Shown piece by piece: positions 8,257 through 43,472 of a stretch of 64,000 nucleotides of DNA. The notes below the pieces were generated by a model that was not told the origin of the DNA, searched no databases, and worked only from the letters and a program-made list of their open reading frames with translations. A program made the position numbers and the translations under genes. Positions within the stretch are counted from its first letter, which is position 1. Each line of letters begins with the position of its first letter. The DNA comes from Pigmentiphaga kullae (lineage in GTDB: Bacteria; Pseudomonadota; Gammaproteobacteria; Burkholderiales; Burkholderiaceae_B), in NCBI RefSeq assembly GCF_004216695.1, contig NZ_SGXC01000002.1:1240001-1304000 (forward strand), written 5' to 3'.

Positions 8257-8606
8257 CGAGCACCACGCCCCCCCGCACCCTTCCCCTGCACCGGCTGGCC
8301 CACGCCCGCACCGGAGACAAAGGCAATCGCGCATCCATCAGCGTCATCGCCTACGATCCCGCCGACTGGCCGTTGCTGGTCGATCAGGTCACCGAGGCCC
8401 GCGTGGCCCGCCTCTTCGCTTCGCGCTCGCCGACCCAGGTCAAACGCTACCTGCTGCCGCGCCTGGCGGCCATGAATTTCGTGCTGGACGATGTGCTCGA
8501 CGGCGGCGTCAACGACTCGCTGAACCTCGACACGCACGGGAAGACGCTTTCCAGCCTGCTACTGACGCTTCCCATTTCCATCGACAATAAGGAGGAGACA
8601 CCATGA
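8253..8606 (+). CDS. AtuA-like small partner domain protein
   Basis: Small protein of 117 residues matching the C-terminal domain that many AtuA proteins carry (HARTGDKGNRASISVIAY near the N-terminus is the recognisable block). Here it is a separate gene overlapping its AtuA partner by 4 bp, which suggests a two-subunit form of a protein that is often a single chain. Its stop codon overlaps the start of the following Bug gene by 4 bp. No membrane segment or signal peptide is visible. The catalytic role is unknown; probably the two chains form one complex. Confidence 0.8.
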   Translation: MTSTTPPRTLPLHRLAHARTGDKGNRASISVIAYDPADWPLLVDQVTEARVARLFASRSPTQVKRYLLPRLAAMNFVLDDVLDGGVNDSLNLDTHGKTLSSLLLTLPISIDNKEETP

Positions 8607-9571: not shown

Positions 9572-9592
9572 TGCACATGCGCGTCGGGCCAG

Positions 9593-9617
9593 GCTGCCGC
9601 CTTACAGCAGCGGCAGC
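9593..9617. terminator. Hairpin between the convergent Bug and ftsH genes
   Basis: Perfect 8-bp inverted repeat GCTGCCGC (9593-9600) and GCGGCAGC (9610-9617) with a 9-nt loop. The loop contains the ftsH stop codon (TAA on the minus strand). It is placed 22 bp after the Bug stop and could serve as terminator for the plus-strand unit. No clear U-tract follows, so intrinsic termination is only possible. Confidence 0.4.
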
Positions 9618-27319: not shown

Positions 27320-28306
27320 GTGATCGATCAACGACGACGCGTCCTCACGCTTGGCGCCATGGCGCTTCCCCTGGCCACGGCCATGTTCCCGGTGCGCGCG
27401 GCCGACAAGTTCCCCTCGCGCCCCATCCGCATCATCGTGCCGTTGGCGCCGGGCGGCTCCGCGGACACGGTATGCCGCCTGCTTGGAAACGGCCTGACCA
27501 AGATCCTGGGCCAGCCGGTGATCGTCGAGAATCGCCCGGGCGCGGGTGGCCTGACCGGGCTGTCCGAAGTCGCCCGGTCGGCGCCCGACGGCTACACCCT
27601 GGGTTATTCGCTGGCCGGCGCGCTGACCGTGGCGCCGCATATCGCGCGCAAGATGCCCTACGATCCGTTCAAGGACCTGGTCCCGGTGTCGCAGGTCATC
27701 GGCGTGCCCGAGATCATCGTCGTAAACCCCCGAACCGGCATCAAGACCCTGGGCGAACTGGTGTCCTACGCCAAGGCCAATCCGGGCAAGCTCAACTTCG
27801 GGTCTGCCGGCAACGCCACCATTCCCCACCTGGCCGGCGAACTGTTCAAGCGCGTGGCCGGGGTCGAGATGGTGCACGTGCCTTACCGCGGCTCGGGTCC
27901 GGCGCTCAACGATCTGTTGGCCGGCCAGGTCCAGGTCATGGTGTCGGACATCACGCTGGTACGCTCGCACATCGAAGCCGGCCGCCTTACCGGTCTGGCC
28001 GTGGCAGGTCCGCGCCGTGTCGACCAGCTACCCAATTTGCCGACCACCGCCGAGGCTGGCGTGCCGGCCATGCAGGTTTCCAACTGGCACGGCCTGGTGG
28101 CGCCGGCTGGCCTGCCCCCGGCCCTGCTGGACGAGTTGCACCACGGCATCGCGAGGGCCATGGCGCTGCCCGAAGTCAAGGAGCGCATCGATTCGGAAGG
28201 CGCGGAAATCGTGGCCAGCAGCTCCGCCGAATTCGGGGCCTTCCTGAAGAAGGAAAGCGACAAATGGGGCGGCCTGGTGAAGGAACTGGGCATACAGTGG
28301 GACTGA
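27320..28306 (+). CDS. Bug/TctC-family solute-binding protein (orphan)
   Basis: Bug-family periplasmic binding protein of 328 residues. GTG 27320 is taken as start because AAGGA lies upstream and the signal peptide (RRRVLTLGAMALPLATAMF) begins right after it; an ATG at 27209 would add 37 residues before the signal. Family blocks FPSRPIRIIVPLAPGG, VIVENRPGAG and KMPYDPFKDL are intact. It stands alone between azurin and exonuclease III genes without a regulator or enzyme partner. Confidence 0.9.
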   Translation: MIDQRRRVLTLGAMALPLATAMFPVRAADKFPSRPIRIIVPLAPGGSADTVCRLLGNGLTKILGQPVIVENRPGAGGLTGLSEVARSAPDGYTLGYSLAGALTVAPHIARKMPYDPFKDLVPVSQVIGVPEIIVVNPRTGIKTLGELVSYAKANPGKLNFGSAGNATIPHLAGELFKRVAGVEMVHVPYRGSGPALNDLLAGQVQVMVSDITLVRSHIEAGRLTGLAVAGPRRVDQLPNLPTTAEAGVPAMQVSNWHGLVAPAGLPPALLDELHHGIARAMALPEVKERIDSEGAEIVASSSAEFGAFLKKESDKWGGLVKELGIQWD

Positions 28307-28538: not shown

Positions 28539-29318
28539 ATGAAGCTCGCCACCTGGAACATCAACTCCCTCAACGTGCGCCTGCCGCAGGTCATCGCCTA
28601 TCTGCAGGCCAATCCGGTCGATGCCCTGTGCCTGCAGGAGCTCAAGCTTTCCGACGACAAGTTCCCCGTCGCGGCCCTGGAGGAAATCGGCTATCACGCC
28701 GTCTTCACCGGCCAGAAGACCTACAACGGGGTCGCCATCCTGACCCGCCAGCCGGTCAAGGACGTAGCCAAGAACATCGACGGGTTCGAGGACACCCAGC
28801 AGCGCGTCATCGCCGCCACGCTGGATACCCCGGCCGGCGAACTGCGCGTCGTCAGCGCCTATTGCCCCAACGGCCAGTCGGTGGGAAGCGACAAATACGA
28901 ATACAAGCTGAAATGGTTCGCCGCCTTCCGCGAAGGACTGCAGAAGGAACTGGCCCGCTACCCGCGCCTGGCGGTACTGGGCGACTACAACGTCGCGCCC
29001 GACGACCGCGACGTGCATGATCCGGTCAAGTGGGAAGGCAGCGTGCTGGTGTCCGAACCCGAACGCGCCGCGTTCCGATCGCTGCTGGACGTGGGCCTGC
29101 ACGATGCCTTCCGGCTGTTCGAGCAGCCGCCCAAGTCCTTCAGCTGGTGGGACTACCGGCAGTTGGGATTCCGCCGCAATGCGGGCCTGCGCATCGACCA
29201 CATCCTGTTGTCCGACACCTTGAAGGCCGTGTGCAGCGAGTGCGTGATCGAACGCGAGATCCGCAAGAACGAACAGCCGTCGGACCACGCGCCGGTGATG
29301 GCGACGCTGGAAATCTAG
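28539..29318 (+). CDS. xthA: Exodeoxyribonuclease III
   Basis: AP endonuclease and 3'-5' exonuclease of base-excision repair, 259 residues, normal length. Conserved motifs are present: [11 protein letters not shown] (Asn7 region), CLQELKL (metal-binding Glu), GDYNVAP (catalytic Asp and Asn) and PSDHAPV (Asp-His pair at the C-terminus). It is transcribed alone; the 232-bp region upstream shows no clear feature. Confidence 0.96.
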
Positions 29319-29323
29319 CGCGC

Positions 29324-30877
29324 TCAGTCCGCCAGCGCGCAGGCCTGGCGGCGCAGGTCGGCCGCCGCTTCCAGCGTGCCGTCGGCGCGCAGGCGGATGG
29401 CCTTGGCCGACCCGAAGTAGAACTCGTGCAGGGAATCCTCCTCCACGGGCACGCCGGCCTCGCGCAAGCGCCGCGCCACGCCCGCCTCGAACCCGGGTTC
29501 GAGCAGGATGTCGCCGCCGCGCGTGAGGCTCCAGCGCGGCGCATCGATGGCCTGGGCCAGCGGCATGTGCTCGAAGCAGGCATGGGCGATCACCTGCACG
29601 CCCGTCGTGGTCTGGCTCACGCCGCCCGGCGATACCCCCAGCATGGATGGACGGCCGCCTTCCATGACGATGTACGGGTTCAGGGTGTGGACCGGCCGCT
29701 TGCCCGGCCCCACCACGTTGGGGCTGGCCGGGTCCAGATCGAATTCGATCAGGCGGTTGTTCATCAGGATGCCGGTTGCCGGATCCACGCAGCCGCTGCC
29801 GAAGGGCTGGAACACGCTTTGCAGCATGGCCAGCGCGTTGCCCTGGCCGTCCGCCAGCACGATGCCGGCGGTGTCGCCAGGATCCCGCGCGCCCGAGGGC
29901 GCCGCATCCGCCACGCTGGCCAGGCGCCGCGCGACCCGCGCCGGATCCAGGGTCGCGGGCCAGGTCGCGGCCGGGTCGGCCACCTTGCGGTGGAAGGTTT
30001 CCAGGCACAGCCGGGCGATCTGGATCTGCGCGTAGGCGCGCTGGCCGTCCGGCTCGTCCAGGTACGGCGCCAGCGCCTCGAGCTGGGCCAGCATCAGCAC
30101 ACCCAGCGAATTCGGCGGCATGACGTGGATGTGCCGGTCCCGCACGCTCAGGCTGACCGGCGGCACCCAGTCCGCGCGCTGCGCCCGCATGTCGTCCAGG
30201 CACAGCAGGCCGCCCTGCTCCCGCGCGAAGGTGTCCAGGCTGCGCGCGATGGGCCCTTCGTAGAAAGCACCGGCGCCGTCGCGCGCGATACGAGTCAGCG
30301 TGTCGGCCAGGGCGGGCTGGCGCAGGAGGTCTCCTGCCGTCAGCGGCCGGCCCTCCGGCGCGAACAGGGTGCCGAAGCCGGGCTGGCGGACCACCGCCGG
30401 CCTGGCGCTCTGGAGGTTGCGGTGGATCTCGCTGGAGCACCCGATGCCGTCCGCCGCGTGGCGCACCGCGTCCTTCATCAGCGAAGCCCAGGGCAGGCGT
30501 CCATGGCGCCGGTGCGCCTGCTCCCACAGGCGCACGAGTCCGGGCACCACCCAGGTCGATGGCCCGCGCGGACCGATGCCGCCGTCGCCGAAGGCATCCG
30601 GGCGGGCCAGGCCGGGCGCCCGGCCCGTGCCGTTCAGGGCCTGGACCGTGCCCGAGGCCGCGTCGTAATACAGCATCATGCCGCAGCCGCCCAGCGAGGT
30701 GGCATGCGGCAGCGCCACGGCCATGACGGCCGATGCCGAAATCATCGCATCGACCAGCGAGCCGCCGGCCCGCAAGGTGTCCAGCGCGCTCTGGCTGGCC
30801 AGGTGATGGCCGGTGACGATGGCGCGGCGACGGCCAAAGACGCCGGCGCGGGGAGCGGGCCTGGCCATGCCGGTCAT
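29324..30877 (-). CDS. Gamma-glutamyltransferase-family Ntn hydrolase, no signal peptide
   Basis: A 517-residue homologue of gamma-glutamyltransferase. The N-terminal large-subunit part has ATSLGGCGMM and the oxyanion/loop region. The expected autoprocessing and catalytic threonine is in PGDTAGIVLAD, aligned with the nucleophile region of classical GGT, and SPGGVSQTTTG near the C-terminus corresponds to the glycine-rich substrate loop. Unlike classical GGT it lacks an export signal, so it should act in the cytoplasm. It is the last gene of the molybdenum-hydroxylase operon (ATGA overlap with coxG), which suggests hydrolysis of an amide intermediate and not glutathione turnover. Confidence 0.85.
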   Translation of the reverse strand: MTGMARPAPRAGVFGRRRAIVTGHHLASQSALDTLRAGGSLVDAMISASAVMAVALPHATSLGGCGMMLYYDAASGTVQALNGTGRAPGLARPDAFGDGGIGPRGPSTWVVPGLVRLWEQAHRRHGRLPWASLMKDAVRHAADGIGCSSEIHRNLQSARPAVVRQPGFGTLFAPEGRPLTAGDLLRQPALADTLTRIARDGAGAFYEGPIARSLDTFAREQGGLLCLDDMRAQRADWVPPVSLSVRDRHIHVMPPNSLGVLMLAQLEALAPYLDEPDGQRAYAQIQIARLCLETFHRKVADPAATWPATLDPARVARRLASVADAAPSGARDPGDTAGIVLADGQGNALAMLQSVFQPFGSGCVDPATGILMNNRLIEFDLDPASPNVVGPGKRPVHTLNPYIVMEGGRPSMLGVSPGGVSQTTTGVQVIAHACFEHMPLAQAIDAPRWSLTRGGDILLEPGFEAGVARRLREAGVPVEEDSLHEFYFGSAKAIRLRADGTLEAAADLRRQACALAD

Positions 30878-31485
30878 CGCAGCAGGTTGGCGCAGAAGGT
30901 GCCGACGAAGCAACCCACGCCGCAGGCAATGGGCAGCCACCAGCCCTGCCAGCGACCCGCCGCCGGCGCGGCGGTTGGCGCGGGCGCGGCCCAAGCCTGG
31001 GCGGGAGCCACGAACCCGGATGCGGGCGCGGCGGCTTGCGCCCCTGCCCCCGACAGTTCGCGCTGCACGTTGGCGAAGAACTGTTCCGAGAACTTGCGCG
31101 CCGCGCCGTCTATCATCCGCGCGCCCAGTTGGGCAACCTTGCCGGTCACCTCGGTCTCGGCACGGTAGCCCAGCAGGGTGCCGCCGGCGATGTCCTCCAG
31201 CGTCACCGCCACGCTGCCGCTGGCGGCGCCGGCCACGCCGGCCGAGCCCTGCCCGGTCAGCGTGAAGCGTTCCTGCGGCGCCTGCACCGAGCGGGCGAAG
31301 GCCACCTCGAAGTTGGCGCGGATGGGCCCCACGCCCGCCGAGATCGTGGCCCGGTAGCCGCCGTCGTCGGTGCGGCTGATGGCGCGGCAATCGGGAATCG
31401 TGCGGCGCAGGAAGTCCAGGTCGTCCAGCGCCTCCCAGACCCGGGCGCGCGGCGCCGCCAGCGTCTTGGTGCCGTCTATGATCAT
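30874..31485 (-). CDS. coxG: CoxG-family protein (SRPBCC domain, C-terminal anchor)
   Basis: Carbon-monoxide-dehydrogenase subunit G family, 203 residues. Residues 1-145 form an SRPBCC/START-like domain (VWEALDDLDFLRRTIPDC, then TEVTGKVAQLGARMIDG). An Ala/Pro-rich linker follows and a hydrophobic C-terminal tail (WWLPIACGVGCFVGTF) that can anchor it to the membrane. CoxG recruits molybdenum hydroxylases to the membrane. It overlaps the flavoprotein gene upstream and the GGT-like gene downstream by 4 bp each. Confidence 0.9.
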   Translation of the reverse strand: MIIDGTKTLAAPRARVWEALDDLDFLRRTIPDCRAISRTDDGGYRATISAGVGPIRANFEVAFARSVQAPQERFTLTGQGSAGVAGAASGSVAVTLEDIAGGTLLGYRAETEVTGKVAQLGARMIDGAARKFSEQFFANVQRELSGAGAQAAAPASGFVAPAQAWAAPAPTAAPAAGRWQGWWLPIACGVGCFVGTFCANLLR

Positions 31486-32633
31486 GGCCGTGCCTCTCCC
31501 ATCATGTCTATGCCCGCCTGCGCCAGGCCGCGGTCGGCCACGCGCATGCGCTCGTTCAGGCACTTGAACTGGCCGAAGCTCCAGGCCACCAGCGGCCGGG
31601 CGAAATCCAGCGAAGTCGGCCACTGGCGCGTGAACCAGTCGTAGCGCACGGCCCAGGCCTGCGTGCGGTCGCTGATGAAGCGCACGCGCTGTTCCCAAGC
31701 CGCCACCGCGGCGGCGACGTCGTCGGCGTCGGCCACCAGGTGCGCCAGCGCATAGGCGTTCATCAGGGTCAGGCCCGCCCCCTGCCCCAGGGTCGGCGGC
31801 AAGCCATGGGCGGCGTCGCCCAGGATGGCGATGTTGCCGACGCTCCACTTCGGGCACTTGACCAGGCCGTAATGGTATTGCGTGCCCTCGGCCCGGTGCA
31901 GCACCGGCATCAGGTCGGCGATCTTGGGAAAACGCCTGCTCCAGTCCTCGACGTCGATGGGAAAGCGCGCCGCCTTGGCGTCCCAGGCCGGGGCGACCAT
32001 GTAGACGTAGGTGTGGTCGGGCCCCGAAGGCGTCACGCCTATGCGCCGGTTGCCGGACCAGTGCTCCACCGTCTTGGGCTGGGACGTGAAGGCGCGGCCT
32101 TCGACCAGATAGCGGTTGATGATGGTCGGCAGCTCGGTGAACCCGCCTCCCATCTTGAGCGAATTGCGCACCGCCGAATGCACGCCGTCCGCCGCGATGA
32201 CCAGATCGGCTTCATGCAGCCCGCCGTCGGCGGTCAGGAGGCCCTTGCCGGGTAGCGCGCCGGTCACGCGCGAACCGGTCACGATGTTCACGCCGGCCTC
32301 CAGCGCCGCGTCGCGCAGCCCCTCGATCAGCACCTGGCGGGCGAAGGTGTGGACGCGGGACTTGTCCCGCAGCGGCCGCTCCTGCTTGACCGTGCCGTCG
32401 GCGAACTGGATCTGCGCGCGCTCGAGCACCGTGCCCTGGCCGCGTATCCGGTCCAGCACGCCCAGCTTCTCCAGCACTTCCAGGCTGTTGTTCTTGATGT
32501 AGATGCCCGCTCCCACCTCGCGGATCTCGGATCCCTGCTCGTGGACGTTGACTTCCCAGCCGTGGCGCGCGAACAGCGCACCCGCGCTCAGGCCGGCGAT
32601 GCCGCCTCCGGCGATTTCTACTTTGCGTTTCAT
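31482..32633 (-). CDS. FAD-dependent monooxygenase, pyridine-ring-oxygenase-like
   Basis: Class A flavoprotein monooxygenase of 383 residues. It has the Rossmann dinucleotide motif (EIAGGGIAGLSAG at 6-18), the DG motif (IAADGVHSAVR) and the second FAD motif GDAAHGLPPTLGQG. N-terminal blocks such as GAGIYIKNNSLEVLEKLG look closer to 2-methyl-3-hydroxypyridine-5-carboxylate oxygenase (which opens a pyridine ring) than to salicylate or 6-hydroxynicotinate hydroxylases. This is judged from memory without alignment scores. It lies 37 bp after the LigB-type dioxygenase gene and overlaps coxG. Confidence 0.85.
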   Translation of the reverse strand: MKRKVEIAGGGIAGLSAGALFARHGWEVNVHEQGSEIREVGAGIYIKNNSLEVLEKLGVLDRIRGQGTVLERAQIQFADGTVKQERPLRDKSRVHTFARQVLIEGLRDAALEAGVNIVTGSRVTGALPGKGLLTADGGLHEADLVIAADGVHSAVRNSLKMGGGFTELPTIINRYLVEGRAFTSQPKTVEHWSGNRRIGVTPSGPDHTYVYMVAPAWDAKAARFPIDVEDWSRRFPKIADLMPVLHRAEGTQYHYGLVKCPKWSVGNIAILGDAAHGLPPTLGQGAGLTLMNAYALAHLVADADDVAAAVAAWEQRVRFISDRTQAWAVRYDWFTRQWPTSLDFARPLVAWSFGQFKCLNERMRVADRGLAQAGIDMMGEARP

Positions 32634-32670
32634 ACCCGATACCCGAAGAAAATGTTGAAGCGAAGAATCT

Positions 32671-33765
32671 CTATCCGGCCTGGCGGCGCTTGGCGGCCAG
32701 GCCGATCTGCATGGCCGCGCCCGAGGTCAGCAAGGCATGGATGCTGAAACGGTCGCGCAGGACTTCCCATTGCATGGCGCACAGCGCCTCGCGCTCGTCG
32801 TCTGCCAGAAGGAACGGCTGGCAGAAGGCCGCGGGGTCGTCCAGGAAACGTTCCGCCGAATCGGCCCGCGTACGCAGGGTCAGGACCGCTTCGGCCAGGC
32901 GGGCCCGCTCCGGCGGCATGGCCGGATAGCGCAGCGGGTCCCGCGCCGGCGAGGGTTCGGTCAGGTCCCACCCCGCCGAGGCATAGATGTGGTGCCACGA
33001 CGGCTCCAGCAGCGCCGTGAACGGCGGCCGGTTCTCGCCCAGCGCCCCGGCCAGGATCAGCGGCGCGCGCAGCTCGACGTTGCCGGTGCGGTCCAGCTCC
33101 CAGTCGTCGTAGCTCAGCAGGTGCGTCAGGTGCCCGGCCTGGATCTCGGCGAAGATGCGCTGGTCGGCCTCCAGGTCGGGATGCGGATAGTGCACCGTGC
33201 CCGGGTAGTGGGACAGGCCGCCGCTGGCGATCAGCAGCGCGCGCTTGCCCAGGCGCTGCAAGGCGGTCTGCAGGGCGGCGCCGAAGGCGTAGCAGCGGCG
33301 CCCGCTGGGCTGGGGCGGCACGTAGGCGTTGACGAACAGGGCCACCAGCGGCACGTCGCGCCCGAAGCCCATGAATTCGTAGGGAATGGTGAAGGCCGTC
33401 TGCAGCTTGGCGTTCATGGTGAAGGCCAGGTCGAAGCCGGCGCGCTCCATTTCCGGAACCAGGGCGTAGCCGGTGTCGCCGTCGATGGCCCACATGCCGC
33501 GATGCTTGTGCATGCCGTCGGCTTCGTCGGCCACGTGCACGCAGAACGGCGGCACGCCGTGGGTGACGAAGTGGTCGCCGTGGTCGTTGGACACCATGAC
33601 GATGCAATCGGGTTCGAGCGCCCGCAGCTGTTCGCCTATGGTTTCCAGCGAGCGGCGCACGCGGGCGACCTGCTCGAGGTCCTCGCTCTCGGGCAGGGAC
33701 AGGAACTGCGGCGCGTGCGGCACGATGGCCGCGCCGACGATGCCGTAAGGGTTGGAGGATTTCAC
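32671..33765 (-). CDS. LigB-type class III extradiol dioxygenase
   Basis: Ring-cleavage dioxygenase catalytic subunit of the LigB/DODA superfamily, 364 residues. AAIVPHAPQF near the N-terminus and SNDHGDHF supply candidate iron and catalytic histidines, and IASGGLSHYPG is the conserved SGGLSH motif. The start is GTG 33765, overlapping the upstream iron-sulfur subunit stop (GTGA). The C-terminal extension beyond about residue 280 may stand in for a small LigA-type subunit. Position after a molybdenum hydroxylase suggests that it cleaves the hydroxylated ring. Confidence 0.88.
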   Translation of the reverse strand: MKSSNPYGIVGAAIVPHAPQFLSLPESEDLEQVARVRRSLETIGEQLRALEPDCIVMVSNDHGDHFVTHGVPPFCVHVADEADGMHKHRGMWAIDGDTGYALVPEMERAGFDLAFTMNAKLQTAFTIPYEFMGFGRDVPLVALFVNAYVPPQPSGRRCYAFGAALQTALQRLGKRALLIASGGLSHYPGTVHYPHPDLEADQRIFAEIQAGHLTHLLSYDDWELDRTGNVELRAPLILAGALGENRPPFTALLEPSWHHIYASAGWDLTEPSPARDPLRYPAMPPERARLAEAVLTLRTRADSAERFLDDPAAFCQPFLLADDEREALCAMQWEVLRDRFSIHALLTSGAAMQIGLAAKRRQAG

Positions 33766-34241
33766 GCTTGCACCTCGGTAGTGGGTCGTTCTTCGTTGGC
33801 GACCTCGACGACGGCCGCCACGATGCCGTGATAGCCCGTGCAGCGGCAGATGTTGCCGGACAGGCACTGACGGATCGCCGGTTCGTCGCGCAACTGGCCA
33901 CGGCGCACGATGTCGTATCCGCTCACGACCATGCCCGGCGTGCAGAAGCCGCATTGCAGGGCGTGGTGTTCGCTGAAGGCCCGGCGCAACCGGTCGGCGG
34001 TGGTGTCGCACAGCCCTTCCAGCGTCGTCACCGAGCAGCCGTCCACCGAGCCCGCCAGCGTCAGGCAGGCACGCACGACCCGGCCGTCGACGATGACGTT
34101 GCAGGCGCCGCATACGCCATGCTCGCAGCCCAGGTGCACGGAGGTCTGCCGGCACTGTTCGCGCAGCACGTCGGCCAGTACCGCGGACGGTTCGACGTCG
34201 AGTCCGGTTTCGCGGCCGTTCACGGTCAATGTGATGTTCAT
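33762..34241 (-). CDS. coxS: Molybdenum hydroxylase small subunit, two [2Fe-2S] clusters
   Basis: CoxS-type iron-sulfur subunit of 159 residues. The N-terminal plant-type cluster ligands are in GCEHGVCGAC and a further Cys (RACLTL). The C-terminal all-helical cluster has CGFCTPG and CRCTGYHG. It carries electrons from the molybdenum site to FAD. The start overlaps the FAD-subunit stop (ATGA) and the end overlaps the dioxygenase start. Length is normal for the family. Confidence 0.95.
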   Translation of the reverse strand: MNITLTVNGRETGLDVEPSAVLADVLREQCRQTSVHLGCEHGVCGACNVIVDGRVVRACLTLAGSVDGCSVTTLEGLCDTTADRLRRAFSEHHALQCGFCTPGMVVSGYDIVRRGQLRDEPAIRQCLSGNICRCTGYHGIVAAVVEVANEERPTTEVQA

Positions 34242-35086
34242 GCAGTCACTCCTTGCCATGCCTGTTCGACCGCCCGGGCCATCGCCTGCGCGTGGCGGGA
34301 TGCCGCCAGCGGATCGATGTGCGGCCGGGCGGCCAGGATCTCGTCCAGGGCCGAGGCCGCGATGTCGCGCCTGGCGGGCAGCGCGCCCCCGGCGGCGGGC
34401 AGCCGTGCCGCCGTGGCCGGCAGCGCCAGCGGACCGGGGTCGATCGCGCCCAGCCAGCATGCCCACCGGCCATCCGCCCCTTGCAGGGCCAATGCGCTGG
34501 CCGAGGCGAATTCGCCGGCCCGGTGCATGAGCTTGCACCGGCCCCACCGCAGAAGACCGGATGCCCGCTCGGGCAGCGTGGCCGCCAGCGCGATCTCGTC
34601 CACCTGCACGTCGCTGTCCATCGCGCCCCGGATGAAGTCGCGCAGCGCAACGGCGCGCCGCCCACGCAGGCTGCCCAGTTCCACCGTGGCGTCCAGGGCG
34701 GTCAGCAGCAGCGGCCAGTCTCCCGCCGGATCGGCATGGACCAGACTGCCGACCACCGTTCCCCGGCCGCGCACCGGCAGGAAAGCGATGTCGGCGGCAT
34801 GCGCCCGCAGCAGGTCGAACAGCACGCCGGCCTGCGTGCACCGCTCGACGTCGGCATGAGTGACGGCCGCGCCGATGCGCACGACGGGCGTGGTATCCAG
34901 GCGCGTCAGCGAGACCACCCGGGTGATGTCGATCAGCGCGTAGGGACGCAGCATGCGGTAACGCATCATGGGCAACAGGCTCTGCCCGCCGGCCAGGACC
35001 TTGGCATCGCTGCCCAGGGCGGCGCGCAGCGCCAGCGCCTCGTCCAGCGTGCGCGGCACGTGCAGCGCGAAAGGCGGCAGCTTCAT
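34238..35086 (-). CDS. coxM: Molybdenum hydroxylase FAD-binding subunit
   Basis: CoxM-type medium subunit of 282 residues. The FAD-binding motif AGGQSLLPMM is present, and the second glycine-rich block reads GRGTVVGSLVHADPAGDWP where the family usually has TIGGS. It passes electrons from the iron-sulfur subunit to the acceptor. Its start overlaps the end of the large subunit gene and its stop overlaps the small subunit start. The variant TVVGS in place of TIGGS is a mild oddity. Confidence 0.93.
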   Translation of the reverse strand: MKLPPFALHVPRTLDEALALRAALGSDAKVLAGGQSLLPMMRYRMLRPYALIDITRVVSLTRLDTTPVVRIGAAVTHADVERCTQAGVLFDLLRAHAADIAFLPVRGRGTVVGSLVHADPAGDWPLLLTALDATVELGSLRGRRAVALRDFIRGAMDSDVQVDEIALAATLPERASGLLRWGRCKLMHRAGEFASASALALQGADGRWACWLGAIDPGPLALPATAARLPAAGGALPARRDIAASALDEILAARPHIDPLAASRHAQAMARAVEQAWQGVTA

Positions 35087-37455
35087 CGCGCACCTCCCTG
35101 CCCGGCTTCGTGCAACTGGCGCAGCAGGTAATCGGGCGTGATGGGCGTGCGGCACACGTCCACACCCAGTTCCGCCAGCGCATCGCGCACGGCATTGGCG
35201 ATGGCGGCGGGCGGCGCCACGGCGCCCCCTTCCCCCATGCCCTTCATGCCGAACTCGGAATGCGGCGACGGCGTGCTGAAGTGCAGGATGGAAATCGGCG
35301 GCACCTCGACCGCGCTGGGCACGGCGTAGTCGCCGAAGGTCACCGTTTGCGGCTGGCCGTTGCTGTCGTAGATCATTTCTTCATACAGGGCCTGGCCGAT
35401 GCCTTGCGCGACGCCGCCGCGTATCTGGCCGTCCAGGATCAGGGGGTTGACCACGGTGCCGCAGTCCTCCACCACCAGGTAGTCCAGGATCCTGACGAAG
35501 CCGGTGTCCGGGTCGACGCTGACGCGCGCGGCATGCAGCGTGTAGGAAAACGTTCCGGTCTCGACGCCGGGCCGGTAATCGGCCTGGAACGAGAAGCCGG
35601 GGGAAATGGAGCGCGGCAGCTTGCTCACGCCCACGTAGGCGACGCGGGCCAGGTCGCCGAAAGACGTCGTGCCCTGCGGCGAGACGCAGGCGCCGTCGCG
35701 CACCTCGACCTGCGCGTCGTCCGTCTCGTGCAGCACGGCGTGGATGGCGCGCGCCTTGCCGACGATGTCGCGGCAGGCCATGGCCACCGCCCCGCCCGCC
35801 ATCACGATGGAACGCGAGGCGACCGAACCCAGTCCGTAGGGCGCCGCCGAGGTATCGCCCTGGCGTATCCGTATCGCCGAGATGGGCAGCGTGGTGATCT
35901 CGGCCGCGATCTGCGCCAGGCTGGTGAAATGCCCCTGCCCGTGCGACAGCGTGCCGACCTCGATGACCAGCGTGCCGTCCATGTTCAGCGTGGCGCGCGC
36001 CGACTCGTGGCCATAGATCAGCGGCGAGCCCCGGCGGCGCCATTCCTCGGCGCCGTGCGCGGCCTGCTCGACCAGCATCGCATAGCCCACGCCCACCCGG
36101 CAGCCGTCCCCGGCCTGCCGCGAAACGGGCCAGTTCTCGGCCACGAAGCGCCCAGCGGCATCGACGATCTCGCGATAGTTGCCCGAGTCATAGGCCAGCC
36201 CCGTGGCCGACACGTAGGGCATCTGCGCCGGCGAGATCAGGTTGGCCCGGCGCACGTCCAGCGGGTCGGCGCCCAGTTCGCGGGCGACTTCCTCGATGAT
36301 GCGCTCCATCGCGAAGCAGCCGCCCGGCCGGCCCACGCCCCGGTACGGACCCAGCGGGCTCTTGTTGGTGTGGATGCTGACGGCCTCGTAGCGATAGTTG
36401 CGGATGTCGTAGGGCCCCAGCATGACGTTGGTGGCCATGTTGGCCTCGATGGCCCCGGTGGAGGTCTTGGCCGAATAGGCCCCGGCGTCCACCACCACCA
36501 GCGCGTCCAGCGCGTGGATCCGGCCCGTGTCGTCGAAATAGGCGGTGATGCGCTGCTCGTGCTGACGGCTGTGGTTGCTGGCGACGAAATGCTCGTAGCG
36601 GTCCTCGATCCAGCGCACCGGCCGCCGCAGCTTCCAGGCCAGCGCGGTCACCAGCACTTCCTCGGGATAGAGATTGCTCTTGGAGCCGAAGCCGCCGCCC
36701 ACGTCCGGCACGACCACGCGGATGTCGGCCTCGGTCAGGCCCGGAATCTGTTCGGCCAGGAAGGTGCGGATCAGGTGCGGACGCTGGCTGGACACGTGCA
36801 CCACCATGCCGCCGGCCGGATCCGGATAGGCCAGGCAGCCCCGGCATTCCAGCGGGCTGGCCAGCACCCTGCCCATGGACAGGCGGCGCGTGACCTGCCG
36901 CAGGCCACGCGCGGCCGGATCGTCGATGATGGACTGCGCATCGCCCAGCGCGCGGCCGATGCGCATGACCAGGTTGGATTCCAGGTGGTCGTGCAGCGGC
37001 ACGCCCGGATGCTCGACCTCGTCCCAGGCATCGACCACCGCGGCCAGCGGCTCGATGTCCAGTTGCACCTGCTCGGCGCGCTCCTCGGCCTCGGCCCGGG
37101 TCGCGCCCAGCGCCAGCACCACGGGCTCGCCGGCGAAACGCACCTTGCCGTCGGCCAGCAGCGGATACGGCGCGCCGTTGAACTCCGGACGCAACAGCGC
37201 GCAGTAGATGGGCAAGGCCAGGCCGGCGATGTCGGCCGCGGTCCAGAACGTCCCGGCCGGCAACTCCGGCGGCAGCGTCACGCCCTTCAGGCGGCCGTGG
37301 GCCACCGGACTGCGGCAGAACGCCACTTCCAGGCACCCGGCCACCTGGATGTCCGCCACGAAGGCGCCCCCGCCTGCCAGGTGGCGGGCATCCTCCACCC
37401 GGGCCAGCGGCCGCCCGATATGGGCGTAGCCACCGTCGACCTTGCTTTGCCCCAT
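35083..37455 (-). CDS. coxL: Molybdenum hydroxylase large (molybdopterin) subunit
   Basis: Xanthine-oxidase-family large subunit of 790 residues that binds molybdopterin-cytosine dinucleotide. VGGGFGSKSNLYPEE and the active-site loop region GPYRGVGRPGG are clear, as is the conserved Glu in GEGGAVAPPAA near the C-terminus. The loop differs from the AYXCSFR loop of true CO dehydrogenase, so a hydroxylase for an organic ring is expected. ATG 37455 lies 2 bp after the Bug stop; a GTG 6 bases earlier is an alternative. No maturation genes (coxDEF) lie in the window. Confidence 0.93.
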   Translation of the reverse strand: MGQSKVDGGYAHIGRPLARVEDARHLAGGGAFVADIQVAGCLEVAFCRSPVAHGRLKGVTLPPELPAGTFWTAADIAGLALPIYCALLRPEFNGAPYPLLADGKVRFAGEPVVLALGATRAEAEERAEQVQLDIEPLAAVVDAWDEVEHPGVPLHDHLESNLVMRIGRALGDAQSIIDDPAARGLRQVTRRLSMGRVLASPLECRGCLAYPDPAGGMVVHVSSQRPHLIRTFLAEQIPGLTEADIRVVVPDVGGGFGSKSNLYPEEVLVTALAWKLRRPVRWIEDRYEHFVASNHSRQHEQRITAYFDDTGRIHALDALVVVDAGAYSAKTSTGAIEANMATNVMLGPYDIRNYRYEAVSIHTNKSPLGPYRGVGRPGGCFAMERIIEEVARELGADPLDVRRANLISPAQMPYVSATGLAYDSGNYREIVDAAGRFVAENWPVSRQAGDGCRVGVGYAMLVEQAAHGAEEWRRRGSPLIYGHESARATLNMDGTLVIEVGTLSHGQGHFTSLAQIAAEITTLPISAIRIRQGDTSAAPYGLGSVASRSIVMAGGAVAMACRDIVGKARAIHAVLHETDDAQVEVRDGACVSPQGTTSFGDLARVAYVGVSKLPRSISPGFSFQADYRPGVETGTFSYTLHAARVSVDPDTGFVRILDYLVVEDCGTVVNPLILDGQIRGGVAQGIGQALYEEMIYDSNGQPQTVTFGDYAVPSAVEVPPISILHFSTPSPHSEFGMKGMGEGGAVAPPAAIANAVRDALAELGVDVCRTPITPDYLLRQLHEAGQGGAR

Positions 37456-37457
37456 GC

Positions 37458-38465
37458 TCACTCCAGCGTCACCTTGGCATCCTTGATGATGCCGCCCCAC
37501 ATGTTGAAGTCATTGCGCATGCGCTTCTTCAGATCGTCCACCGAGGTGTCCATGGGCGCAAGCCCCAGGTCGATCAGCGAACTGCGCACGTCCGGCTTCT
37601 TCAGGATCTTGTTCACTTCGTCGTTGATGGAAGCAACCACGGCGGGCGGGGTCTGCGCCGGCGCCATCAGGATGAACCAGCTCGACAGCTCCTCGTCGGG
37701 CAGGCCGGACTCCTTCAAGGTCGGCAGCGCCGGCGTGCTCGGGAAGCGGTTGCGCGCCCCCACCATCAGCAGGCGCACCTTGCCGGCATCCACCATGGGG
37801 CGCAGCGGCGGGATGTTGTCGAAGCTGAAGTCGATGTCGCCCTGCGCCAGCGCCACCGATGCCGGACCGCTGCCCTTGTAGGGCGAGTGGACGGCCTTGA
37901 TGCCGAGCTGCTTGATCAGCCATTCGGAAGCCAGGTGCAGCGTGCTGCCGGGACCCGCCGAGCCGAAGGTCACGCCTTTCTCGGTGGCGGCCTTGGCCTT
38001 GATCTCGGCGATGAAGTCCTTGACGTTGGTCGCCTTGATGCCGGGCCCCACGGCCAGGAACGGCGGCACTTCGACGATACCCACCACCGGTACCAGTTCC
38101 TTCATGGCGTCGTAGTCGAGCCTGGGGTACAGGTGCGCATTGTTGACGACCGAGGTGGTGGCCAGCAGCAGCGTGTAGCCATCGGGCGCGGACCGGATCA
38201 CGTTGCGGGTCGCGATCTGGGTGCTGGCGCCGGGCTGGTTCTCGACCACCACGGCCTGGCCATAGACTTCCTGAAGTTTCCTGCCGATCAGCCGCGCCGT
38301 CACGTCGCTGCCGCCGCCCGCGGCGAAAGGCACGATGATCTTGATGGGACGGCTGGGATAGTGGTCGGCCGCCGTGGCAGTGGCGGCACAGACCGCGGCG
38401 GCGCAGGCAAGCACGGCACCGGCGGTGCGTCGCGCGAAAAGCGATGAACTCAACGACATCTTCAT
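37458..38465 (-). CDS. Bug/TctC-family solute-binding protein of the aromatic operon
   Basis: Periplasmic binding protein of 335 residues with signal peptide (cleavage near TATAADHY) and family blocks YPSRPIKIIVPFAAGGG and VVVENQPGAS. ATG 38465 is the first Met of the signal. It sits between the RidA gene (71 bp upstream) and coxL (2 bp downstream), so it probably recognises the substrate of the pathway encoded by this operon. Confidence 0.93.
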   Translation of the reverse strand: MKMSLSSSLFARRTAGAVLACAAAVCAATATAADHYPSRPIKIIVPFAAGGGSDVTARLIGRKLQEVYGQAVVVENQPGASTQIATRNVIRSAPDGYTLLLATTSVVNNAHLYPRLDYDAMKELVPVVGIVEVPPFLAVGPGIKATNVKDFIAEIKAKAATEKGVTFGSAGPGSTLHLASEWLIKQLGIKAVHSPYKGSGPASVALAQGDIDFSFDNIPPLRPMVDAGKVRLLMVGARNRFPSTPALPTLKESGLPDEELSSWFILMAPAQTPPAVVASINDEVNKILKKPDVRSSLIDLGLAPMDTSVDDLKKRMRNDFNMWGGIIKDAKVTLE

Positions 38466-38536
38466 GTTCGATACCTTGAGCGAAGAGGGGAAAGGACGCA
38501 TCGGCGGCACGCGGGGTCCGCGCGCCGCCAGCCTGC

Positions 38537-38917
38537 CTAGCGGGTCGCCACGACCTCGATCTCCAGCATCATCCCGGCGATCGCCAGGGGTGCCTCGATC
38601 GTGGTGCGGGCCGGAAACTTGCCTTCCTGGAAATAGCCGCGGTAGATCTCGTTCATCTCGTTGAAGCGGCTGATGTCGGTCAGGATCACGTTGGCCTTCA
38701 CGACCTTGTCCAGCGAGCTGTCGCATTCGCCCAGGATCTGCTTGAGGTTCTTCATCACCTGGTGCATCTGCTCGGAGAAGGTCGGCGCCAATTGGCGGTT
38801 GGCGTCGAAGGGCGTGGTGCCCGAGACGAAGACGAAGTCGCCGGCGACGACCGCGTGCGAAAGCGGCGCCTTGGGCTTGGCGACGGCGTCGGACATGAAA
38901 ATCTTGCTTGTGGACAT
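38537..38917 (-). CDS. RidA-family enamine/imine deaminase
   Basis: RidA/YjgF/Rid family protein of 126 residues, normally a trimer that hydrolyses enamines or imines to ketones and ammonia. The conserved substrate-binding Arg lies in FPARTTIEA and the segment VFVSGTTPFD is typical. As the first gene of the operon it fits a pathway whose ring opening yields enamine intermediates. ATG 38917 is taken as start. Confidence 0.92.
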   Translation of the reverse strand: MSTSKIFMSDAVAKPKAPLSHAVVAGDFVFVSGTTPFDANRQLAPTFSEQMHQVMKNLKQILGECDSSLDKVVKANVILTDISRFNEMNEIYRGYFQEGKFPARTTIEAPLAIAGMMLEIEVVATR

Positions 38918-39021
38918 GAGGGGCCTCGATAATGACTGGCGGGAAACGCTCGAACCGCCGGCTGCTGTGCCGCCACCTTGGCGTCAGTCTTGCCGGTCGC
39001 CGAAAAATTATCGGGAGATCG

Positions 39022-39030
39022 CCCCCCCCC
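39022..39030. repeat. Run of nine C in a divergent promoter region
   Basis: A homopolymer of nine C on the plus strand lies between the ridA start (38917) and the LysR start (39161). The rest of 38918-39160 shows no clear operator. Such runs can change length by slippage; in Bordetella, C-runs in fimbrial promoters do so. Confidence 0.6.
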
Positions 39031-39160
39031 AACAAGACAAGGGGCACGCACACCATGTTCTCGATCCGAGAACACCCGCACGCCACCGGGGCATGCGACG
39101 CTACATCCTTGGACATCGATCGCACGAGGGCGGTGCGCGGCACCGGAATGGGGAACCTGC

Positions 39161-40075
39161 ATGAACCCGGCTGACCTGGCCAGCTTCTATGAAGTCGCGG
39201 TATGCAAGGGCATACGGCGCGCATCGGAACGGCTCGACATCGCGCCCTCGGCCCTGAGCAAGCACATCAAGCGGCTGGAAGGCGAACTGGGCATCAAGCT
39301 GCTGGACCGCTCCAGCCGCGGCGTCGTGCTGACGCCGGCGGGCGAGGTCTGCCTGCACTATGCCGAGGAAGTGCTGCACGGCCAGCGGCGCATGCTGGCC
39401 GAACTCGAGGCGCTCAAGGGCCTGCGCAACGGCCACGTGAAGCTGTATTCCACCGAGGGCCAGATCGAGTTCGTGACCCAGACCGTGGCCGGATTCCAGC
39501 AGCGCTATCCCGGCGTGACCTTCGAGATCGTCGTGGCCGGCACCGAGACCACGCTGGCCGCGGTCACCAGCGGCGACGCGGACCTGGGCCTGGCGTTCAC
39601 CCCCACGCCGCACGACGCCATCGAATGCGCGCTACGCATCTCCGCGCCGCTGGAGGCGGTGATGGCGCCCACGCACGAACTGGCGCGCCGCAAGTCCATA
39701 TCGCTGCGCGAGATGCTGAATCACCGCACGGCGCTGCCGGCCTCGGACTTCGGCATACGCCGCCTGATCGACTCCATCTGCGCGGGCGAACGCCTGCGGG
39801 TGGCGCCGGCGATGGTGACCAACTCCATCGCCGCGATGAAGAACTACGCGCGCAACCAGGGCGGCATCACCATCCTTTCGCACATGTCCATCCACCATGA
39901 ACTGGACGCGGGCGACCTGGTCAGCATTCCGCTGTCGCATCCCATCCTGGGCAAGACCTGCGTGGACGTCTGCGTGCTGGGCCGCCGGCGCCTGCCGCAG
40001 GCCGTCAGCGCCTATCTGCAGCACATGCGCAAGCAGGTACGCACGTTGTATGGCCAGGACGGCGGCGGACGCTGA
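39161..40075 (+). CDS. LysR-family regulator of the aromatic operon
   Basis: LysR-type regulator of 304 residues: winged helix-turn-helix about 1-60 (GIRRASERLDIAPSALSKHI) and an effector domain. The ATG at 39161 begins normal family sequence; longer in-frame reading upstream is non-coding. It is divergent from the RidA-Bug-Cox-dioxygenase operon 243 bp away and is the obvious candidate for its inducer-dependent control. It is followed, tail to tail, by the bioC-bioD gene. Confidence 0.92.
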   Translation: MNPADLASFYEVAVCKGIRRASERLDIAPSALSKHIKRLEGELGIKLLDRSSRGVVLTPAGEVCLHYAEEVLHGQRRMLAELEALKGLRNGHVKLYSTEGQIEFVTQTVAGFQQRYPGVTFEIVVAGTETTLAAVTSGDADLGLAFTPTPHDAIECALRISAPLEAVMAPTHELARRKSISLREMLNHRTALPASDFGIRRLIDSICAGERLRVAPAMVTNSIAAMKNYARNQGGITILSHMSIHHELDAGDLVSIPLSHPILGKTCVDVCVLGRRRLPQAVSAYLQHMRKQVRTLYGQDGGGR

Positions 40076-40084
40076 AGGCCGGCC

Positions 40085-41509
40085 TCAGGCGCCCGCGGCT
40101 CCGGCCGCTTCCAGCACCTGCTCCAGCGGTTCGATGCCGCGCGCCAGGGCAGCCACCACACCGGCATCGACGGCGGATAGACGCGGGATCTCGGCCAGCA
40201 CGCGGACCTTGCCGAACTGTTCGATGCCGAGCCGGTTGCCCGCCGAGGGCTCGCCGCTCATCACCACGCCCGCCACCGGGATGCTGCGCGCGCGCAGGGC
40301 CTCCAGCGACAACAGCGTGTGATTGAGCGTGCCCAGCGTGCTGCGCGCCACCAGCACCACCGGCAGCCCCAGGCGGGCGATCAGGTCGATCATCGTCGCC
40401 CGCTCGTCGATGGGGACCAGCAGCCCGCCGGCGCCCTCCACCACCAGCGGCGCGCGCGTGGCGGGCAGCGCGATATCGGCCGCGTCCAGCGCCACGCCTT
40501 CCTCGCGCGCGGCCGCCCAGGGCGACAAGGGCGCCTGCAGCACCGCGTGGGGCGCATGGATGCGTCCGGGCGCAAGATCGGCCAGAAGCGCCACCGTGCC
40601 GGTGTCGTCGGGTTCGGTCGCCACGCCGGTCTGCAAGGGCTTCCAGTAGTCGGCCTGCCAGGCGCGCGCCAGCACGGCGGACACCAGCGTCTTGCCGATG
40701 CCGGTATCGGTGCCGGTGACGAACACGCCGCGCGGCGCCCCTCCCTTGTTCCAGGTGCCGTAGGCCAGGTGGTAGGTCACGCTTGCTCCCTGAGTATCGA
40801 AACTGCGCAGTATCCGTTTGAACGTGGCCGGCGGCAGCGGCCGGCGGCCCGGCGCGGGCGCATCCGCGCCTATCGCCTTGAGTCCGCGCAGGAACGCCAT
40901 GCCGTCGCGATGGGGCTGCACCCGCCGTTCGGCCCGCATGATGCGGCGCAGGCCGGGCAGCGCGGCGCCTATGTCCGCGGGACGGGGATAGTCGCGAACC
41001 GCGGCGTCCACGCCATGGTTCTCATGCGCGGCCCGCCATTCGGCGAAGGTGCCGTCGGCCAGCGTGGCCACGGCCATCCAGCCGCCCTCGGCCAGCAGGC
41101 CGCCCAGCCGCGCCAGCCCGGCATCCAGGTCGCCGAACCATTGCACGGCCATGCTGGAACAGATCAGGTCGAACTCGCCCAGCCCCGCATCGGGATGCTC
41201 GCCGTCCATGGCCAGGAAACGACAGGTGCCGGGCAACGCCAGCCGATGCCGCGCGGTCTCCAGCATGGCGGGCGAGATGTCGGTCAGCGTCCACCGCGCG
41301 GGCCCCAGCCGGCGCGCCAGGGCCTCGGCCAGGAAGCCCGTGCCGCAGCCTATCTCCAGGATGCGCGGGCGATCCGGCAGCGGCAGGCGGACGATGCGCG
41401 CGGCCAGTTCCTCGGCCACCTCGCGCTGCAAGCCCGCATGGCGCTCGTAGCGCTCCGCCGCATCGCCGAAGCGGCGGGCCACGGCCCGCCCATGGACGTG
41501 CGCCGTCAT
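40085..41509 (-). CDS. bioCD: Fused BioC-BioD: malonyl-ACP methyltransferase and dethiobiotin synthetase
   Basis: A 474-residue fusion of two biotin enzymes. Residues 1-255 are a BioC-type SAM methyltransferase (ILEIGCGTGFLAE at 50-62, TYHLAYGTW near the end of the domain), which methylates malonyl-ACP to start pimelate synthesis. Residues about 258-474 are BioD, the ATP-dependent carboxylase that makes dethiobiotin, with Walker A VTGTDTGIGKT (264-274), KPLQTG and VEGAGGLLVP. No stop or start separates them. The gene overlaps the BioH-like gene upstream by 4 bp. Confidence 0.94.
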   Translation of the reverse strand: MTAHVHGRAVARRFGDAAERYERHAGLQREVAEELAARIVRLPLPDRPRILEIGCGTGFLAEALARRLGPARWTLTDISPAMLETARHRLALPGTCRFLAMDGEHPDAGLGEFDLICSSMAVQWFGDLDAGLARLGGLLAEGGWMAVATLADGTFAEWRAAHENHGVDAAVRDYPRPADIGAALPGLRRIMRAERRVQPHRDGMAFLRGLKAIGADAPAPGRRPLPPATFKRILRSFDTQGASVTYHLAYGTWNKGGAPRGVFVTGTDTGIGKTLVSAVLARAWQADYWKPLQTGVATEPDDTGTVALLADLAPGRIHAPHAVLQAPLSPWAAAREEGVALDAADIALPATRAPLVVEGAGGLLVPIDERATMIDLIARLGLPVVLVARSTLGTLNHTLLSLEALRARSIPVAGVVMSGEPSAGNRLGIEQFGKVRVLAEIPRLSAVDAGVVAALARGIEPLEQVLEAAGAAGA

Positions 41510-42174
41510 GCCGGATCCACGGCACCCGCATGTTCACGCGCGAACATGCGAATCTGGTTGGCGCACCACTCGGGGTGTGTCAGCGGCAGCAGGTGTCCGC
41601 CGCCCGCGCACCAAGCGACCTCGCCGCCGAACGAGGCGGCAGTGAGCGCCGGCGCGACGACCGGATCGGCATCGCCGGCCAGGACCCGGACCGGCACGCG
41701 CCGCCCCGCCCAGGCCGCGCGCGCATCGCCCTCGCACAGATGGCGCAGGCCGGCGGCCAGGGCGTCCCCGTCCAGCGCGCCCGCGTCGACGGGCTCCTCG
41801 GCGCCGCAGCGCCGGCGGAATTCGCCCACCACGGCCGCGGGATCCGCCGCCAGGCGCGCCAGCATGCGGTCCAGCACCCTGGGCGCCACCCCTTGGGGAA
41901 AATCGGCGGCGGCCGAGAAACGCGCGAATCCGTTGATCAGGACGAGGCCGCGGCAGCCGCCGCCCGCCTCCTCCAGGCCGCGCATGGCGCCCAGCGAATG
42001 CCCCACCGCCACATAGGCCGGCGGGCGTCGGGCCGCAACGGCGCGGCCGAAGTAGCCGGCATCGTCGGCGTGGATCTCCCAGCCGTCCAGATGCGCGCGC
42101 ATGGGCGCCCAGGTCGAGGCATCGAAGCCCCACCCATGCAGGAGCACCAGCGGCAGGCGCGCGCCGCCGGTCAT
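41506..42174 (-). CDS. bioH: BioH-like alpha/beta hydrolase (pimeloyl-ACP methyl ester esterase)
   Basis: An alpha/beta hydrolase of 222 residues. VLLHGWGFDAS is the oxyanion region, GHSLGA the nucleophile elbow, an Asp follows in LAGDADPV and a catalytic His in GGHLLPL. The position between bioF and bioC-bioD, with 4-bp overlaps on both sides, supports the role of removing the methyl group from pimeloyl-ACP methyl ester. It is shorter than E. coli BioH (256 residues), so other pimeloyl-ester esterase types are possible. Confidence 0.82.
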   Translation of the reverse strand: MTGGARLPLVLLHGWGFDASTWAPMRAHLDGWEIHADDAGYFGRAVAARRPPAYVAVGHSLGAMRGLEEAGGGCRGLVLINGFARFSAAADFPQGVAPRVLDRMLARLAADPAAVVGEFRRRCGAEEPVDAGALDGDALAAGLRHLCEGDARAAWAGRRVPVRVLAGDADPVVAPALTAASFGGEVAWCAGGGHLLPLTHPEWCANQIRMFAREHAGAVDPA

Positions 42175-43373: not shown

Positions 43374-43472
43374 GGTCCAGCGGTGCGCCCGAAGGCGCCC
43401 GCACCGTAGAATGCGTGTCATTGTAGAGGAACGACCGGCCCGGCTTCCCGCCCTGGCCGGCGCAGGACGATC

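Follow-up and report, generated by a model that had tools for sequence, protein, structure and literature searches.

The stretch of DNA considered here, called the window throughout, comprises 64,000 nucleotides of the Pigmentiphaga kullae genome (contig NZ_SGXC01000002.1, positions 1,240,001 to 1,304,000), and between its positions 29324 and 40075 it carries nine genes that run in one direction, together with a divergent gene for a LysR-type regulator. Inferring both reactions and substrate from the sequence, we consider it probable that these genes form an operon, induced by its substrate, for the breakdown of an N-heteroaromatic acid, with a pyridine carboxylate as the likeliest candidate. 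The comparisons reported below establish the genes and their order, their conservation in other bacteria, the intactness of their catalytic residues and an exchange of the upstream enzymes in two relatives, and this exchange constrains the chemistry further than the window alone could.

Gene order and conservation

The operon is read on the minus strand and begins with the gene for RidA, a Rid-family enamine/imine deaminase (38537..38917; PF01042, 1.2e-30 and 106 bits when read from 38896), which is followed by a periplasmic solute-binding protein of the Bug or TctC type (37458..38459; PF03401, 3.9e-61) and by the three subunits of a putative azaarene-type molybdenum hydroxylase, namely the molybdopterin subunit CoxL (35083..37455; PF02738/PF20256), the FAD subunit CoxM (34238..35086; PF00941, 3.6e-37) and the 2Fe-2S subunit CoxS (33762..34241; PF01799, 6.4e-26, and PF00111). 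Downstream of these lie a LigB-type class III extradiol dioxygenase with a GTG start, a catalytic domain and a C-terminal helical part (32671..33765; PF02900), an FAD monooxygenase (FMO; 31482..32633; PF01494), CoxG (30874..31485; PF06240, 2.7e-23) and an N-terminal-nucleophile (Ntn) hydrolase resembling gamma-glutamyltransferase (GGT), whose N-terminus is without strong hydrophobicity (29324..30877; PF01019, 5e-105). The LysR gene occupies 39161..40075 on the plus strand (PF00126/PF03466). All nine operon proteins and LysR exceed their Pfam gathering scores, and the layout proposed in the initial annotation, nine genes in this order with LysR divergent, is present in full. Its description of the junctions as mostly 4-bp overlaps also holds: five of the eight (CoxL-CoxM, CoxM-CoxS, CoxS-LigB, FMO-CoxG and CoxG-GGT) are at -4, and the others are at +77 for RidA-Bug (counted from the Bug ATG at 38459), +2 for Bug-CoxL and +37 for LigB-FMO. 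Two ATG codons, at 38917 and 38896, are candidate starts for RidA, and the former is the more likely because GAGG stands before it.

Relatives of LigB were sought by a pattern-seeded scan of a collection of 84,980 species, which gave ten loci, and in sampled genomes at a threshold of E<=1e-60, where they occur in 12 of 250 genomes of the family, Alcaligenaceae, and 13 of 399 of the order; apart from the window's own, the matches in the order are 39-44% identical, with one exception at 51%. Within the genus, five of 11 genomes have either the gene itself or an orthologue at 96-97%. Twenty-one loci, the window included, were then compared by using the ten window proteins and six others as queries. 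The series Bug-CoxL-CoxM-CoxS-LigB-FMO-CoxG-GGT, whose recurrence in other genomes had been suggested as a check on the initial annotation, is complete in ten of them, nine beyond the window: five are of the same genus (the window, L013, L014, L015 and L045), four are of other genera of the family (Verticiella sediminum, L016; Bordetella genomosp. 13, L022; L057; L037) and one, L019, is a Burkholderiales metagenome-assembled genome. The proteins of the five full-series loci outside the genus are 45-72% identical to those of the window, and since nine further loci keep the series, five of them at just this level, it represents more than chance. A further locus, L059, has the first part of the series and then reaches its contig end.

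Some components vary around this series. Every one of the 12 loci in which LigB and GGT occur together with a CoxL of at least 61% identity or with the Rieske set described below has a Rid-family protein (E<=1e-10 in the stretches compared); it is RidA in eight and the longer RidA2 (PF14588/PF01042) in four, with no locus having both, and in L019, L022 and L057 the RidA2 gene lies between LigB and FMO. GGT is clustered with LigB in every one of the 12 uncut loci whose LigB is at least 57% identical, be they of the molybdenum type or the Rieske type. The compared loci outside the genus gave no LysR match and have a GntR-type gene as the regulator, at 50% or more in seven of the nine (counting L022, which supplied the query). 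Of the nine loci outside the genus in which LigB is accompanied by GGT or the sequence ends before GGT is reached, six have a gene of the fumarylacetoacetate hydrolase (FAH) family nearby (the L016 query and five loci at 55-57%); the L018 match is 35% identical, and none was found near the cluster in L019 or L058. The window's genome has 16 FAH matches elsewhere at E<=1e-40, the best by E-value being 49% identical.

Catalytic residues and exchange of the upstream enzymes

Two loci, L017 of Achromobacter denitrificans and L018 of Caballeronia sordidicola, retain LigB, GGT and a Rid protein and give no match to CoxLMS, FMO or CoxG within 21 kb; what they carry instead is a Rieske oxygenase, a reductase and a Gfo/Idh dehydrogenase. 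The solved structures nearest to the L017 Rieske protein are 9ina (6.8e-90) and 7fhr, a 'putative phthalate 4,5-dioxygenase' (2.3e-86), and the Gfo/Idh protein of L017 is 43% identical to an annotated pht4 4,5-dihydroxyphthalate dehydrogenase, its best match (47%) being named by family alone. L017 is sister to the molybdenum-type locus L022 in the trees of both LigB (support 100/99) and GGT (99/98); L018 groups with molybdenum-type loci in both (94/97 for LigB and 99/98 for GGT, for the group of five), with weak support for its exact position in the LigB tree. Because L017 and L018 fall among molybdenum-type loci, the upstream enzymes have been exchanged while the ring-opening core stayed. In phthalate degradation a Rieske dioxygenase and a dihydrodiol dehydrogenase together yield an ortho-diol, so the molybdenum and flavin route should give the same one, and the parsimonious reading is that CoxLMS and FMO would make it by two single hydroxylations. 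L017 also has two RidA copies (7617-7997 and 16660-17040) that flank its LigB-Rieske cluster; they are alike at 376 of 381 bases, and the exact match ends within 8 bases past either end, suggesting duplication of the gene alone.

The solved structure nearest to CoxL is quinoline 2-oxidoreductase (1t3q; 4.9e-140, 471 bits), with which it has the YRGVG and KGMGE stretches in common; the best carbon monoxide dehydrogenase (CODH) reaches 363 bits. The hydroxylase loop of CoxL reads PYRGVGR, as it does in seven of eight aligned orthologues (PFRGVGR in L019), and Glu742 is kept in all eight. By its closest solved relative, the Glu at the molybdenum site and the YRGVG loop, CoxLMS is assigned to the azaarene-type molybdenum hydroxylases, the group of quinoline 2-oxidoreductase, at the level of the group only; no NCBIfam model reaches its cut-off. 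CoxG, which may pass electrons to quinone, has a hydrophobic C-terminal tail in all 11 sequences read. The PDB matches of the FMO are headed by five sequences of 2-methyl-3-hydroxypyridine-5-carboxylate oxygenase (MHPCO) at <=4.6e-48 (3alm, 4.8e-49), followed by NicC (5eow, 3.6e-18), with scores of 170 versus 69 bits. MHPCO opens its own ring and has Tyr82, Tyr223 and Arg211 as substrate residues; in an alignment read by hand, R197 and Y209 of the FMO correspond to Arg211 and Tyr223, but Ala73 stands at the position of Tyr82, which is why we place the FMO in the MHPCO group and do not class it as MHPCO.

Class III extradiol dioxygenases have His, His and Glu as Fe(II) ligands and a further, catalytic His. 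His17, His62, Glu231 and His186 of LigB are invariant in 17 of 17 sequences, and His62 and His186 line up with their counterparts in MhpB and LigAB; judged by these residues LigB is a class III extradiol dioxygenase, predicted to cleave the ring of an ortho-diol. Elsewhere in the same genome, a LigB paralogue at 43% identity (locus L036, G000:C1:654500-674400; 8977-10050, minus strand) shares 4 bp with an overlapping aldehyde dehydrogenase gene (PF00171), and the LigB relative in L038 also adjoins an aldehyde dehydrogenase gene.

The GGT-like protein was considered as a true gamma-glutamyltransferase and rejected: it scores 274.2 against a TIGR00066 cut-off of 357.85, and Arg114 of the E. coli enzyme, which binds the gamma-glutamyl group, corresponds to Thr84 (from the alignment, numbered by hand). 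Thr336, its predicted nucleophile, is invariant in ten of ten sequences. HpxW is the best match of its small chain (5hft_B, 6e-24) and, at 33%, has the highest identity to the protein among the best 50 PDB matches listed. We therefore propose that the protein is HpxW-like, oxamate amidase activity being predicted by similarity alone; HpxW itself turns oxamate into oxalate and ammonium, according to the available text of PMC5270733. RidA falls in the Rid family by its PF01042 domain and by an Arg, in the PARTTI stretch, that is kept in eight of eight RidA relatives; its TIGR00004 score of 96.0 is under the cut-off of 106.25. Enamine deaminases of the RidA kind have Arg105 as their conserved Arg.

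Proposed pathway and competing chemistry

In the pathway that we propose, Bug would deliver or sense the acid, and CoxLMS would add a water-derived hydroxyl to a ring carbon adjoining the nitrogen, its electrons perhaps passing to quinone via the membrane-tailed CoxG. The FMO would add a second hydroxyl on the neighbouring carbon, and LigB would open the resulting aza-catechol in extradiol fashion; from 2,3- (equivalently 5,6-) dihydroxypyridine this would give an N-vinyl oxamate-type amide, since by chemical reasoning an opening between C3 and C4 leaves N-CO-COOH (oxamate) on the nitrogen. The HpxW-like GGT homologue would hydrolyse this amide to an enamine, and the Rid protein would clear the enamine or imine. 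With a carboxyl at C6, the product would be 2-amino-4-oxobutenoate and then a 2,4-dioxo acid, which could be split by an FAH-family enzyme, encoded beside the cluster in most relatives and elsewhere in this genome. Picolinate or quinolinate would fit as the substrate, and quinolinate would fit the Rieske exchange as well, because its 5,6 positions correspond to the 4,5 positions of phthalate. We also put forward, tentatively, the broader idea of a general meta-cleavage lower pathway for aza-catechols, in which LigB would produce an N-vinyl oxamate, the GGT-fold amidase would release oxalate and the Rid protein would deaminate the enamine to a dioxo acid, and which two interchangeable upstream sets would feed, one a molybdenum hydroxylase with a flavin enzyme and the other a Rieske dioxygenase of the phthalate type with a dehydrogenase. 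The initial annotation had read the genes as an N-heteroaromatic degradation operon, and this stands as the best reading, strengthened by CoxL, the FMO, the LigB residues, the non-GGT amidase and the module exchange; the pathway, the substrate, the order of the reactions and the nature of the amide are put forward as predictions, as are the activities of the enzymes.

A number of observations weigh against this proposal. The FMO might open the ring, as MHPCO does, and the operon in the window is without an FAH gene. A full-length PDB search with the GGT-like protein ranks a Bacillus halodurans 'cephalosporin acylase' (2nlz) first, and GGT-like proteins at 33-38% identity occur in all 40 plasmid matches listed, the best 40 of 752 matching records; because such proteins are common and 2nlz ranks first, resemblance to HpxW is weak evidence. 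Neither of two oxalate-degrading families gave a match over its cut-off, oxalyl-CoA decarboxylase (TIGR03254) in 18 genomes and bicupin oxalate decarboxylase (TIGR03404) in 12, so the released oxalate has no obvious use, which is mildly against the oxamate step. L058 has LigB and GGT at 51% with CoxL at just 34%, CoxG at 38% and no FMO or Rid match, and in L020 and L021 a LigB of 51% identity stands without other catabolic genes. The PDB matches of Bug (2dvz, 3.9e-54; terephthalate-binding 8hka, 2.4e-52; Bug27 2qpq, 7e-52) give, as sequence matches, no indication of its ligand, and no membrane partner for it was seen within the operon.

An operon of the same type could instead handle a different diol. 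With 3,4-dihydroxypyridine, as in routes of the PydA or Kpi kind, LigB would cut between C2 and C3 to an N-acyl formiminopyruvate, which the GGT-like protein would deacylate, Rid would clear the enamine and the FAH enzyme would cut formylpyruvate, the acyl group being formyl or, with a 2-carboxyl, oxalyl; taken in both its forms, we regard this alternative as unlikely but worth keeping in view. In its favour, the available part of PMC7356986 gives PydA the annotation of a 3,4-dihydroxypyridine dioxygenase of the LigB family and proposes an FAH-family enzyme for the final step of the Kpi route. The FAH gene beside six of nine related clusters outside the genus agrees with such a route, and oxalate use is not needed if the acyl group is formyl, but the amidase is HpxW-like, whereas Kpi uses an alpha/beta hydrolase. 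Molybdenum hydroxylases that act at C4 (the quinaldine-type oxidases) are also known to do so mainly where C2 is blocked. Moreover, neither of the conserved PydA stretches DDHFENH and EWICGM, given as primer sites in the available part of PMC3637104, is present in any of the 21 LigB relatives, one of which (L059) is truncated.

That the ring is carbocyclic (for example that of a hydroxylated aromatic acid or a phthalate analogue), with GGT and Rid as accessory detoxifying proteins, we consider improbable. The Rieske-containing set found in L017 and L018 does resemble phthalate degradation, the LigB fold is like that of protocatechuate and other carbocyclic dioxygenases, and Bug is equally close to terephthalate-binding proteins and Bug27; however, GGT accompanies LigB in all of the 12 uncut loci counted above, an amidase and an enamine deaminase make little sense without a ring nitrogen, and CoxL is nearest to quinoline 2-oxidoreductase and the FMO to a pyridine oxygenase. 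It is likewise quite doubtful that the FMO is a ring-opening oxygenase like MHPCO, with LigB acting on another intermediate or another compound: the bit scores and the kept R197 and Y209 are in keeping with such a role, whereas Ala73, the presence of LigB with its active-site residues kept in all ten FMO-bearing loci and the lack of an FMO where the Rieske set stands tell against it. The chance that CoxLMSG is an aerobic CODH, for which the CoxMSL subunit set with CoxG and matches to NCBIfam CODH models (514 and 404 bits) might be cited, is negligible, as these scores lie far under the cut-offs of 950 and 991, quinoline 2-oxidoreductase is more than 100 bits ahead of any CODH, a ring-hydroxylating set stands in place of CoxLMSG in two relatives, and the loop PYRGVGR, which the initial annotation had rightly separated from the CODH type, differs from the CODH active-site motif AYxCSFR, leaving CO oxidation unsupported.

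Cassette boundaries and relation to known pathways

The LysR gene and the nine operon genes are a discrete cassette (29319..40084) that is missing from some close relatives. It is flanked by convergent genes named from their domain matches as xth-like (28539-29318, plus strand) and bioC-bioD-like (40085-41509, minus strand), which are separated by 10,766 bp in the window; of these, 5 bp on the xth side and 9 bp on the bioCD side lie outside the coding ends. In the congeners G008 and G009, which have the same letters there, the site is empty, and the stop codons of the flanking genes overlap; the two genes lie 63 bp apart in G004 and far from each other in G001 and G006, and no bioC-bioD match was found in G010. 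From the empty sites in operon-less congeners it follows that LysR and the nine genes were gained or lost as a single piece.

Between LysR and RidA, the perfect palindrome GTTCTCG-N3-CGAGAAC (39057..39073) is likely, from its sequence and position, to be a LysR-type binding site. Its arms are unchanged in all five loci of the genus, the three central bases vary, and 0.02 such palindromes are expected per window, by shuffles allowing <=1 mismatch. A terminator-like hairpin with a T run lies between the palindrome and RidA on the minus strand (39008-39035; three overlapping sites versus 0.2 expected); it contains a long G run whose letters differ among relatives, and it is a candidate leader element for the operon.

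The surroundings include other features. Biotin-cluster-like genes at 40085-44756 comprise a 474-aa fusion of a methyltransferase and an AAA_26 (BioD-type) domain and two genes of the pyridoxal phosphate aminotransferase fold; the two halves of this fusion give separate, neighbouring matches in G001 and G006. Four more Bug/TctC-type genes (PF03401) lie in the window at 8633-9571, 13742-14716, 27359-28306 and 46258-47235, and a partial open reading frame at 63481-63999 has the look of a further one. An AtuA gene (PF07287) and one for a separate AtuA ferredoxin-like domain protein (PF23544), at 6955-8606, precede a TctC gene and follow a LysR-like gene, in what looks like a small catabolic operon. 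Beyond the window, the variant cluster of L058 (1847-11616) also has two alpha/beta hydrolases, with a VanA/LigX-type Rieske gene upstream on the opposite strand.

Among known systems, the 2-aminophenol meta-cleavage (amn) pathway, whose AmnD is a Rid protein, has its amino group outside the ring and is not known to include a molybdenum hydroxylase or GGT. The phthalate 4,5-dioxygenase (Oph/Pht) upper pathway shares its enzyme set with L017 and L018, where the set is joined to LigB, GGT and Rid, and is absent from the window operon. HpxW of purine catabolism is a GGT-fold amidase like that of the operon and differs from it in pathway and by its 33% identity. The pic picolinate pathway of related bacteria (Alcaligenes faecalis JQ135 and Bordetella) likewise begins on a pyridine carboxylate with a dehydrogenase, PicA, and then a monooxygenase, PicB; unlike the operon described here, it has a multi-gene picB1B2B3B4 and proceeds through 3,6-dihydroxypicolinate, the decarboxylase PicC, 2,5-dihydroxypyridine, PicD, PicE, PicF and PicG, and the available portion of PMC10142695 makes no mention of LigB, GGT or Rid genes. 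A PicC-like amidohydrolase domain was found by Pfam in none of the nine operon genes. The 3-hydroxy-4-pyridone and 4-hydroxypyridine routes of Rhizobium TAL1145 (PydA) and Arthrobacter IN13 (Kpi) share with the operon an FAD monooxygenase (Kpi), extradiol opening of a dihydroxypyridine (by PydA, of the LigB family), amide hydrolysis, an enamine and a proposed FAH-family end, but they have, in the excerpts of PMC7356986 and PMC3637104 at hand, no molybdenum hydroxylase step, and KpiC is a dioxygenase of the amidohydrolase fold and KpiB an alpha/beta hydrolase. The claim of the initial annotation that no described pathway has exactly this set is borne out by a literature search that covered few subscription journals: the enzyme families are all known, and their combination and exchangeable design were not found described in the literature searched.

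The pic route for a pyridine acid converges on 2,5-dihydroxypyridine (PMC10142695, in its available portion), as do nicotinate and hydroxypyridine routes (PMC7356986, in part). If the present reading is true, the conserved and exchangeable module, by cleaving an N-ring with ortho-hydroxyls, would be a separate lower pathway and a concrete enzyme set for the removal of N-heterocycles, and GGT-like and Rid proteins now annotated by family alone would gain a function. The aza-catechol pathway, if true, would be to our knowledge the first case of a GGT-fold enzyme taking part in the degradation of aromatic rings. The swap of upstream modules makes the claim of a shared intermediate directly testable.

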